A stretch of 37,477 bases of DNA. Origin: Solirubrobacterales bacterium (GTDB taxonomy: Bacteria; Actinomycetota; Thermoleophilia; Solirubrobacterales; 70-9). The position numbers were made by a program, and so were the translations under genes. The stretch lies in the NCBI GenBank assembly GCA_021154855.1, contig JAJKHV010000171.1:1-37477 (forward strand). The letters are read 5' to 3'. The notes under the pieces were generated by a model. It ran no database searches and was not told the origin of the DNA. It was given only the letters and a program-made list of their open reading frames with translations. This document shows positions 3,888-8,021 of the stretch, piece after piece. Each line of letters opens with the position of its first letter. The first letter of the stretch is position 1.

Positions 3888-5282
3888 TTAAGGCAGCCAG
3901 GGCTCGTGCCACTGGCAGATGCCCCGGGTCAGCTTCTCCGCCTCGGGAGGGCCCCAGGTTTCCGGCGCGTATGGGATCACCGGTCCTGGCTCGTCGAGCA
4001 GCGGCTGGACGATCCTCCACGTCTCTTCGACCGTGTCCTGGCGGGTGAAGAGCTGATGGTGGCCGGCGATCGCGTCGCCGAGCAGCCGCTCGTAGGGCTC
4101 GGGATCCTCGCCCGGCGTTTTCTCGAAGAGGACCTCGAGGTTGGCCGGCTCGAAAGCCTCCTCGCCGGCCTGCTTGGCGAAGAGGCGCATGCGCGCGCCC
4201 GGTACGGGCTCGATCCGCACCGTCAGCCGGTTCGGTTCCGGCCGCTTGCCGGCGCCGACGCCGAGTGGCGGCGGGCGCTTGAAGACGACGCTCACCTCGC
4301 TGGACTTGGCCGGCATGCACTTGCCGGTGCGGACAAAGAAGGGCACTCCGTGCCAGCGCCAGTTGTCGACGGCCAGCTCGATCGCGGCAAAGGTCTCCGT
4401 GGTTGAGTCCGGCGCCACGCCGTCGATGTCGAGGAAGCCCTTGTACTGGCCGCGCACGTAGTGCTGCGGGTCCGCCGTGCGCGTCGCCTTGAAGAATTCG
4501 AGCTTCTTATCCCGCACCGAGTCGTGGTGGTTGCCCGTCGGCGGGCCCATGCCGACCAGGGCGAGCACCTGCAGGGCATGGTTCTGGATCACGTCGCGCA
4601 TCGCCCCGACCGCGTCGTAGAAACGACCGCGATCCTCGACGCCGAAGTCCTCCGCGATTGTCATCTGCACGTGGGAGACGTGCTCGCGATTCCAGACCGG
4701 CTCCAGGGTCGCATTGGCAAAGCGCAGGTAGGTGATGTCCATCACCGGCTCCTTGCCGAGGTAGTGGTCGATGCGCAGGATCTGGTTCTCGTCGAGGATC
4801 TCGCAGAGCTCCGCGTTCAGCTTGCGTGCCGATTCGAGATCGTGGCCGAACGGCTTCTCGATCACCACGTGGGCGTTCCCAGTCAGCCCGGCGGCGCCGA
4901 GCCCATGCACGACCGTGGCAAAAAGCGACGGTGGGATCTCGAGGTAAAAGACGGGCCGCTTCGCGGCGGCGATCGCTTCGGCCACCCGCTTGAACGTAGC
5001 GGCGTCGGCGTAGTCGCCCTGCACGTAGGAAAGCCGCGCTGCGAGCCGGGTGAAGACGTCTTCATCGGGATTGCTGACGGTTGTCGCGATCGCCTCGTGG
5101 GCGTGCTTGCGCAGCTGCTCGGTGTCCCACTCATCGATCGCGACGCCGACGATCGGGCAGTCGAGCAGACCGCGCGCCTCCAATCGGTAGAGGGCGCGGA
5201 AGGTCATCTTCTTCGCCAGGTCGCCGCTGATCCCGAAGATCGTCAGGACGTCGGCGGTTCGATCCTTTTCGGCCTTGGCCAT
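3888..5282 (-). CDS. zwf: Glucose-6-phosphate 1-dehydrogenase
   Basis: Rossmann start LTIFGISGDLAKKMTFRALYRL; active-site RIDHYLGKEPVMDITYLRFAN; FFVRTGKCMPAKSSEVSVVFK. Confidence 0.95.
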   Translation of the reverse strand: MAKAEKDRTADVLTIFGISGDLAKKMTFRALYRLEARGLLDCPIVGVAIDEWDTEQLRKHAHEAIATTVSNPDEDVFTRLAARLSYVQGDYADAATFKRVAEAIAAAKRPVFYLEIPPSLFATVVHGLGAAGLTGNAHVVIEKPFGHDLESARKLNAELCEILDENQILRIDHYLGKEPVMDITYLRFANATLEPVWNREHVSHVQMTIAEDFGVEDRGRFYDAVGAMRDVIQNHALQVLALVGMGPPTGNHHDSVRDKKLEFFKATRTADPQHYVRGQYKGFLDIDGVAPDSTTETFAAIELAVDNWRWHGVPFFVRTGKCMPAKSSEVSVVFKRPPPLGVGAGKRPEPNRLTVRIEPVPGARMRLFAKQAGEEAFEPANLEVLFEKTPGEDPEPYERLLGDAIAGHHQLFTRQDTVEETWRIVQPLLDEPGPVIPYAPETWGPPEAEKLTRGICQWHEPWLP

Positions 5283-5351
5283 GCGTCCGCCAGGCTACCC
5301 GTTGCCCGCCTGCTCTCACACACATCGTCCCGGCTCGCGTAGGGTTATGCC

Positions 5352-6368
5352 ATGGAGCTGGGAATGGTCGGCCTCGGCCGCATGGGGGCCAACATGGCGC
5401 GGAGGCTGATGCGCGACGGGCACCGCCTCGTCGTGTACGACGTAAGTGCGGACGCCGTTTCCGCGCTCGCCGCCGAGGGTGCCGAGGGAGCGTCCTCCCT
5501 GCAGGGCCTGGCCTCGAAGCTGAGCGCCCCCCGCTCGGTCTGGGTGATGGTCCCTGCCGGCGAGATCACCGAGAAGACGGTCGGGGACGTCGCGGCTGTT
5601 TTGGACACCGGCGACGCGATCATCGACGGTGGAAACTCCTACTACCGCGACGATATCCGCCGCGCCGCGACGGTCGCCGAGAAGGGAATCGACTACGTCG
5701 ACTGCGGCACCAGTGGCGGGGTCTTCGGCCTCGAGCGCGGCTACTGCTTGATGATCGGGGGCCCGGATCGGGCCGTGGAGCGGCTCGATCCGGTCTTCGC
5801 CTCACTGGCGCCGGGAGTCGAGTCAGCGGCGCGCACGCCGGGCCGCTCGGGCGAGGTCTCACCTTCGGAGAACGGCTACCTGCACTGTGGCCCCAACGGC
5901 GCCGGTCACTTCGTGAAGATGGTCCACAACGGGATCGAGTACGGGATCATGGCCGCCTACGCAGAGGGTCTCAACATTCTCAAGAACGCAAACGCCGGCA
6001 AGGTTCAGCGCGAGGCCGATGCCGAGACCGCGCCACTCGAGCAGCCCGAGTACTACCAGTACGACCTCGACCTTCCCGAGGTGGCGGAGGTCTGGCGGCG
6101 GGGCAGCGTGGTCGGCTCCTGGCTGCTCGACCTGACCGCCGCCTCGATGCAGGAATCCCCCGACCTCTCGGACTTCGCCGGCCGCGTCTCGGACTCCGGC
6201 GAGGGCCGCTGGACCTCGATCGCGGCGATCGACGAGGGCGTGCCGGCTCCAGTCCTCACCACTGCCCTCTACGAGCGCTTCTCCTCGCGCGATCTCGACG
6301 ACTTCGCCAACAAGGTGGTCTCGGCGATGCGCAAGCAGTTCGGCGGCCATGACGAAAAGCCGTCCTAG
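5352..6368 (+). CDS. gnd: 6-phosphogluconate dehydrogenase (decarboxylating), short form
   Basis: MELGMVGLGRMGANMARRLMRDGHRLVVYD; CGTSGGVFGLERGYCLMIGG; GPNGAGHFVKMVHNGIEYGIMAAYAEGLNIL. Confidence 0.95.
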   Translation: MELGMVGLGRMGANMARRLMRDGHRLVVYDVSADAVSALAAEGAEGASSLQGLASKLSAPRSVWVMVPAGEITEKTVGDVAAVLDTGDAIIDGGNSYYRDDIRRAATVAEKGIDYVDCGTSGGVFGLERGYCLMIGGPDRAVERLDPVFASLAPGVESAARTPGRSGEVSPSENGYLHCGPNGAGHFVKMVHNGIEYGIMAAYAEGLNILKNANAGKVQREADAETAPLEQPEYYQYDLDLPEVAEVWRRGSVVGSWLLDLTAASMQESPDLSDFAGRVSDSGEGRWTSIAAIDEGVPAPVLTTALYERFSSRDLDDFANKVVSAMRKQFGGHDEKPS

Positions 6369-7080: not shown

Positions 7081-7100
7081 TGTTAGCGAATTCGCTAACA
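7081..7100. promoter_or_regulatory. Perfect 20-bp palindrome TGTTAGCGAATTCGCTAACA, candidate operator of the HTH gene
   Basis: Fully self-complementary; ends 7 bp before the ATG at 7108. Confidence 0.75.
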
Positions 7101-7107
7101 TATTGCC

Positions 7108-7461
7108 ATGGACCCGATGAAAGCGACGAAGCCAGCCGCATCGTTGGTGGGCCAGATCCAGGCGCGTAGCGGCCTCAGCCAGGCCGAACTTGCCCGCCGG
7201 GCGGGGCTGCCTCGCTCCGTTGTCAACGCCTATCTACGTGGAAATCGGGAGCCCGGGGCGGACGCCCTGGCGCGCCTTGCCGCCGCGGGCGGGTTTGGGC
7301 TCGAGTTGGCTACGCGCGAGCCGCCGGTCGACGTCGACCGCGCGAGCAAGATCCTCGTTCAGGTTCTGGAGCTCGCCGAGGCGCTGCCGTTTCGACCGCG
7401 TCCCGATCTCGACTATCCGAGCCTGGCAGGTCGGATTGCGGTGGGCAGAGTGGCGTCATGA
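7108..7461 (+). CDS. XRE-family helix-turn-helix protein (candidate antitoxin/regulator)
   Basis: IQARSGLSQAELARRAGLPRSVVNAYLRGNREPGADALARLAAAGG is a typical XRE HTH; ATGA overlap with the next gene. Confidence 0.85.
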   Translation: MDPMKATKPAASLVGQIQARSGLSQAELARRAGLPRSVVNAYLRGNREPGADALARLAAAGGFGLELATREPPVDVDRASKILVQVLELAEALPFRPRPDLDYPSLAGRIAVGRVAS

Positions 7462-8021
7462 GTGAGCTCGTCGACAAGCTCTTCGCCATCCATGATTCGC
7501 TCACCGATGCGGGTGTTGCTCATGCCTTCGGCGGCGCGATCGCACTCGCATATTGCGTGGAGGAGCCTCGGGGTACGCGTGACCTCGACGTCAACATCTT
7601 CGTTCAGGCATCCGAGGCGGAATCGGTCCTGGCCTCTCTACCGAAAGGAGTCAGGGTCAGAAAAAAGGACGTCGTCAAAGTCGAACGAGACGGCCAGGCC
7701 CGACTCGACTGGGACGGAACCCCAATAGACGTTTTTCTCAACAACGTTCCACTGCACGAGGCAGTCGCGGCTTCTGTCGTCTGGGTGCGGCTGCAGGATC
7801 GCGATGTGCCGGTGCTCGACTGCGCCTCGCTGGCGATCTTCAAGGCCTTCTTCGACCGGACCAAGGACTGGGCTGATCTCGAGGCGATAGCCCAGGCGAC
7901 GCCGGAGGACATCGACGCCGCGGCCGCGACGATCACCAAGCTCGTCGGCGAGGACGACCCGGCCGTTCAGCGACTCGAGAGCCTCATCCCCCTCGACGTC
8001 GGCTCGTCCCCGTCCCGGTAG
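7458..8021 (+). CDS. Nucleotidyltransferase-fold protein (candidate AbiEii/MenT-like toxin)
   Basis: Pol-beta NTase motif AFGGAIALAYCVEEPRGTRDLDVNIF followed by a third acidic motif GTPIDVFLNNVP. Confidence 0.75.
   Translation: MSELVDKLFAIHDSLTDAGVAHAFGGAIALAYCVEEPRGTRDLDVNIFVQASEAESVLASLPKGVRVRKKDVVKVERDGQARLDWDGTPIDVFLNNVPLHEAVAASVVWVRLQDRDVPVLDCASLAIFKAFFDRTKDWADLEAIAQATPEDIDAAAATITKLVGEDDPAVQRLESLIPLDVGSSPSR

Follow-up and report, generated by a model that had tools for sequence, protein, structure and literature searches.

The two-gene locus that follows the zwf-gnd-pgl gene set in the window (the whole 37,477-nucleotide stretch of DNA analyzed here) is probably an autoregulated chromosomal toxin-antitoxin (TA) module of the MenT/AbiEii superfamily with a new antitoxin architecture (Table 1). 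Downstream of pgl, a palindrome is followed by a gene for an XRE-type helix-turn-helix (HTH) protein and a gene for a nucleotidyltransferase (NTase); beyond the latter, a BBE-type oxidoreductase gene and the ribose-5-phosphate isomerase gene (rpi) are located on the other strand. The preliminary description had recognized the ATGA-overlapping genes for a 117-aa HTH protein and a 187-aa NTase of the pol-beta type, which the open reading frames bear out, and had placed them between pgl and the BBE oxidoreductase gene, with flanks and coordinates that are correct. Under the mechanism proposed here, growth would be arrested when the NTase attaches nucleotides to an RNA; the most likely target is tRNA 3' ends, which the toxins MenT1 and MenT3 modify in this way. 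The XRE protein would bind the palindrome that contains the putative -10 element and repress the operon, and its C-terminal helix and tail would bind and inactivate the NTase, perhaps through induced autophosphorylation of T40, as MenA1 acts on T39 of MenT1.

Table 1. Features of the XRE-NTase locus (positions in the window)
Feature	Position	Strand	Basis
Perfect 20-bp palindrome, predicted operator (arms TGTTAGC and GCTAACA around GAATTC)	7081..7100	.	Sequence; same place before most homologous pairs
Likely -10 element TAACAT (right arm of the operator)	7096..7101	+	6 bp before ATG; conserved TANNNT hexamer
XRE-HTH gene, predicted antitoxin/autorepressor, 117 aa	7108..7461	+	Pfam HTH_3, 6.7e-10
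Recognition-helix start P35-R36-S37-V38, predicted operator reader	7210..7221	+	Mutual information with operator half-site
C-terminal module, residues 78-104 (RASKILVQVLELAEALPFRPRPDLDYP), predicted NTase-binding neutralizing segment	7339..7419	+	Conserved across partner types
ATGA overlap coupling the XRE and NTase genes	7458..7461	+	ORF coordinates; 4-bp overlap shared by most homologous pairs
MenT1/AbiEii-like NTase gene, predicted toxin, 187 aa	7458..8021	+	AF2 pLDDT 94; Foldseek MenT1; Pfam AbiEii
NTase motifs I-II, G25-G26 ... R38-x-T40-x-D42-x-D44	7530..7589	+	Conservation in 100 members
Third catalytic acid D91 (PIDVF)	7728..7730	+	99/100 members
NTase motif III K129 and motif IV K136-D137-x-x-D140 (+DxxD)	7842..7877	+	Conservation in 100 members

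As judged by its motifs, the NTase is of the AbiEii/MenT (DUF1814) type: all four motifs, as defined for the DUF1814/AbiEii proteins (PMC3985639), are present and nearly invariant. The pattern hG[GS]-x15-DhD of motifs I and II is found together with the motif II arginine, with 15 residues between GG and D42. All 100 family members possess G25, G26, R38, T40 and D42 as well as D137 and D140 of motif IV (K136-D137-W-A-D140 in the window protein), and D44 and K129 are each present in 99. Motif position, namely two residues before the first catalytic aspartate, aligns T40 with T39 of MenT1 (MenT1 residues as published), the autophosphorylation site of that toxin, for which the roles of T39 and D41 have been described (PMC11375011).

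A Foldseek search of the PDB with the AlphaFold (AF2) model of the NTase retrieves MenT1 entries as all five best matches (E-values from 4e-10 to 9e-8, TM-score 0.72, 22-23% identity), followed by LnuA, ANT(2'') and JHP933 at 1e-5 or weaker and by MenT3, which is weaker still. Thus, in the comparison with MenT and AbiEii that the preliminary description called for, the nearest solved relative is MenT1 and not AbiEii itself. The structure-based identity to MenT1 is low (23%), the fold is common to antibiotic NTases too, and PDB sequence searches with the NTase and with the NTase profile found no MenT chain. In Pfam, the window NTase matches AbiEii (PF08843) with 24.5 bits (cut-off 22.5); among 34 relatives, just 10 match this family at E <= 0.1, compared to 26 for DUF6036 (PF19502). 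A match to Abhydrolase_6, under the cut-off of that family, was taken as chance.

The partner protein had been described as a bare XRE protein, but beyond the HTH it contains a conserved C-terminal module. The AF2 model of this protein includes four HTH helices and a separate helix, residues 76-92; HipB is among the nearest folds, with weak E-values. The module, a helix and a tail of about 27 residues with the pattern L-x-x-V-L-x-L-A-x-x-(L/F)-P-x-R-x4-L-x-x-P, is present in nearly all XRE partners. Among 108 non-redundant NTases, 87 are accompanied by an XRE protein with the module, 10 by a non-XRE partner that shares just this module, and one by the module alone. Given that the module is kept when the HTH domain is replaced or lost, it is probably the part that binds and silences the NTase. 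The distances between NTases correlate with those between C-terminal modules with r of 0.72, vs 0.63 for the HTH domain. A search of the PDB with the module profile found no MenA1 chain even at an E-value of 10, a result of limited sensitivity for such a short module.

Most of the non-XRE partners are proteins of about 160 aa with the N-terminal sequence MAFVV...GPRSRTLATF that belong to no Pfam family (e.g., L091, 4386-4877; L065, 1008-1487; L115-L121). In locus L052, the partner is a 73-aa non-XRE protein with the module; a PDB sequence search started from this protein found no MenT or MenA chain. In L113, no HTH gene precedes the NTase gene, and there is just a stretch of about 30 residues of the module upstream of position 1497. 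A third type of upstream partner, a protein of 100 aa without an XRE domain in which the module is not recognized, is encoded in L074.

The possibility that the pair is a regulated antibiotic- or metabolite-modifying NTase of the ANT(2'')/LnuA kind, combined with an XRE repressor, appears unlikely. LnuA and ANT(2'')-Ia rank among the fold matches that follow MenT1, and Pfam Aminoglyc_resit weakly matches 5 of 34 family members (best value 0.014), but MenT1 fits far better (4e-10 vs 2.6e-5), and the invariant +DxxD motif IV has been described as specific to AbiEii/DUF1814 (PMC3985639). Furthermore, the association with one short C-terminal module, whatever the N-terminal domain, is not expected of simple repression.

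The putative operator TGTTAGCGAATTCGCTAACA is, as originally noticed, a perfect 20-bp palindrome that ends 7 bp upstream of the ATG of the XRE gene. No other perfect palindrome of at least 18 bp is present in the 37.5 kb of the window; with up to three mismatches allowed, the sequence is found at this single place and in none of 100 shuffles. The host genome assembly (74% complete) contains GTTAGC-N6-GCTAAC in one exact copy and, elsewhere, one copy with a single mismatch, and the operator is effectively unique in this assembly. Among the homologous loci, all six outer pairs are intact within 80 bp of the start codon in 58 of the 88 XRE loci, vs 5.6% of control scans, and a perfect 18-bp palindrome is found in 20 of the 88, vs 0.4% in controls; the commonest spacing between the operator and the start codon is 7-8 bp. 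The search for XRE-NTase neighborhoods with the same palindrome thus shows that the pair and a matching operator are conserved, whereas the palindrome sequence varies by clade.

In 43 of the 45 loci with a spacing of 7-10 bp, the right arm of the palindrome forms a TANNNT hexamer 6-9 bp upstream of the start codon, and where the spacing is longer, a hexamer resembling TANNNT tends, on inspection, to fall between the operator and the start. This arrangement suggests that TAACAT serves as the -10 element and that transcription yields a leaderless mRNA; a scan with the sigma-70 consensus and for terminators found neither a promoter nor a terminator. With the -10 element inside the operator, binding of the XRE protein would block the promoter. 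The proposal of autoregulation through the palindrome gains from this comparison, in that the conservation of the palindrome at the promoters of homologous pairs points to such a mechanism. Two loci, L018 (about 1260-2414) and L142, contain two divergent XRE-NTase pairs back to back, with a GTTATC-type palindrome in the common intergenic region.

The operator sequence varies with the recognition helix. Among 65 HTH residues, residue 36, the first residue of the modeled recognition helix, has the highest background-corrected mutual information with the operator half-site bases, followed by residues 25, 26, 38 and 35, but these statistics overstate the evidence because the operator/helix classes almost coincide with clades (13 changes on the NTase tree, with a minimum of 12) and so represent few independent switches. 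Operator base 3 is also predicted best by residue 36. H36 is associated with GGTATC (G at position 3 in 36 of 36), P36 with GTTATC (6 of 6), R36, the variant of the window clade, with GTTAGC (complete in 8 of 11), and Q36 with ATATC (6 of 8). In L057 (1160-1185 in the oriented locus), the operator is TGATACC-N6-GGTATCA, in which the half-sites of the usual GGTATC-N6-GATACC have changed places, and the recognition helix differs (SAST). We assign about an even chance to a more general reading, namely that the MenT1-like NTases form an undescribed toxin family whose neutralizer is a module of about 27 residues, that this module has been fused to two or more unrelated N-terminal domains (XRE and one of about 120 residues with no Pfam match) and stands almost alone in one locus, and that the XRE branch switched operator specificity several times while keeping the neutralizer.

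A scan of GTDB contigs identified 35 homologous NTases (34-69% identity) from Actinomycetota and a number of proteobacterial groups; the XRE gene is located directly upstream of nearly all of these, mostly with the ATGA overlap. In whole-genome searches, 28 of 397 genomes from the phylum, 32 of 299 from the class to which the window belongs and 66 of 296 from another class contained the NTase, and a single genome can have as many as three copies. This is apparently an undescribed, widespread branch of the MenT/AbiEii TA systems. Literature searches for NTase toxins with Xre antitoxins did not find the pair described, and the novelty is provisional given that the coverage of these searches was partial, with the original MenT survey outside it.

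The preliminary description considered a TA or defense module distinct from AbiE; a two-gene, TA-like NTase module is what we find, and specific support for defense is lacking. An AbiE-like phage-defense (abortive infection) system with an XRE antitoxin, a reading compatible with the TA module favored here, has only a small probability. Weak AbiEii matches were obtained in both Pfam and PADLOC, and AbiE is a phage-defense TA system (PMC3985639), but the PADLOC E-value is just 0.0059, and a search of plasmid, phage and viral-contig collections yielded no match to the module. Membership in AbiE proper and in the HEPN-MNT systems is rejected because the required partner is missing: in the former case, there is no AbiEi (COG5340, winged HTH), the partner being an XRE protein of HTH_3, and in the latter case, the partner has no HEPN match and the NTase matches AbiEii/DUF6036 rather than MNT.

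The gene order next to pgl differs among relatives. The XRE-NTase pair is located beside pgl in the window and in three other cases (L001, G404 and G648). In G398, from the same genus, and in G624, this place is taken by an inverted pair that consists of a 43%-identical NTase and a MAFVV-type antitoxin. In G397, also from the same genus, the place beside pgl is occupied by an RHH gene and, after it, a PIN-domain gene, a pair that is VapBC-like by inspection (L092, about 5109-5820), and an XRE-NTase pair is encoded on another contig. In G399, pgl and rpi are in direct contact, with no insert. This pattern of presence and absence agrees with the original reading of the pair as an insertion, and the replacement of one TA type by an unrelated one at a single site fits the picture of a landing place for TA modules. 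A housekeeping regulator and enzyme without TA behavior is very improbable: the pair is retained beside pgl in several family members, but its presence is patchy in most sampled taxa, single genomes carry multiple divergent copies (e.g., G056), other TA pairs replace it at the same site, and proteobacterial copies are nested among actinobacterial ones in a midpoint-rooted tree.

Considered as a TA family, these loci provide numerous compact pairs whose DNA-binding and neutralizing functions apparently reside in separate, recognizable pieces. Two questions thus become directly accessible to experiment: whether a single short peptide suffices to silence an NTase toxin, and how the operator specificity of XRE proteins shifts along with the recognition helix.

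Among the characterized systems, MenAT1 of M. tuberculosis (Rv0078A-Rv0078B) resembles the pair in the fold and size of the NTase, in the location of the antitoxin gene upstream of the NTase gene and in the threonine two residues before the first catalytic aspartate. Most of what is known of MenT toxins comes from M. tuberculosis, with diverse antitoxins and no unifying mechanism before the autophosphorylation proposal, and a single MenA1 helix is enough to act on MenT1 (PMC11375011). However, MenA1 (68 aa) lacks a DNA-binding domain (PMC10435456), whereas the partner described here has an XRE domain and a predicted operator of its own, and no likeness to MenA1 is detectable in the C-terminal module of this partner. 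AbiE (AbiEi-AbiEii, DUF1814, type IV) shares motifs I-IV, the regulator gene before the NTase gene and, in line with what is predicted here, autorepression through inverted repeats, but AbiEi combines a winged HTH with an uncharacterized C-terminal domain in place of XRE, and the abiE promoter contains two widely spaced repeats rather than one 20-bp site (PMC3985639). The DUF6036 NTases resemble the family through the Pfam matches given above; the window protein itself does not match this family of unknown function, of which a literature search found no mention. Finally, the locus has the general layout of TA systems with XRE antitoxins, such as HipBA, HigBA and RES-Xre, i.e., a two-gene operon with the antitoxin gene first and a palindromic operator at the promoter, as inferred from the TANNNT hexamer; it differs from these systems in that the toxin is an NTase and that the predicted neutralizing module lies in a short C-terminal tail that is common to non-XRE partners.
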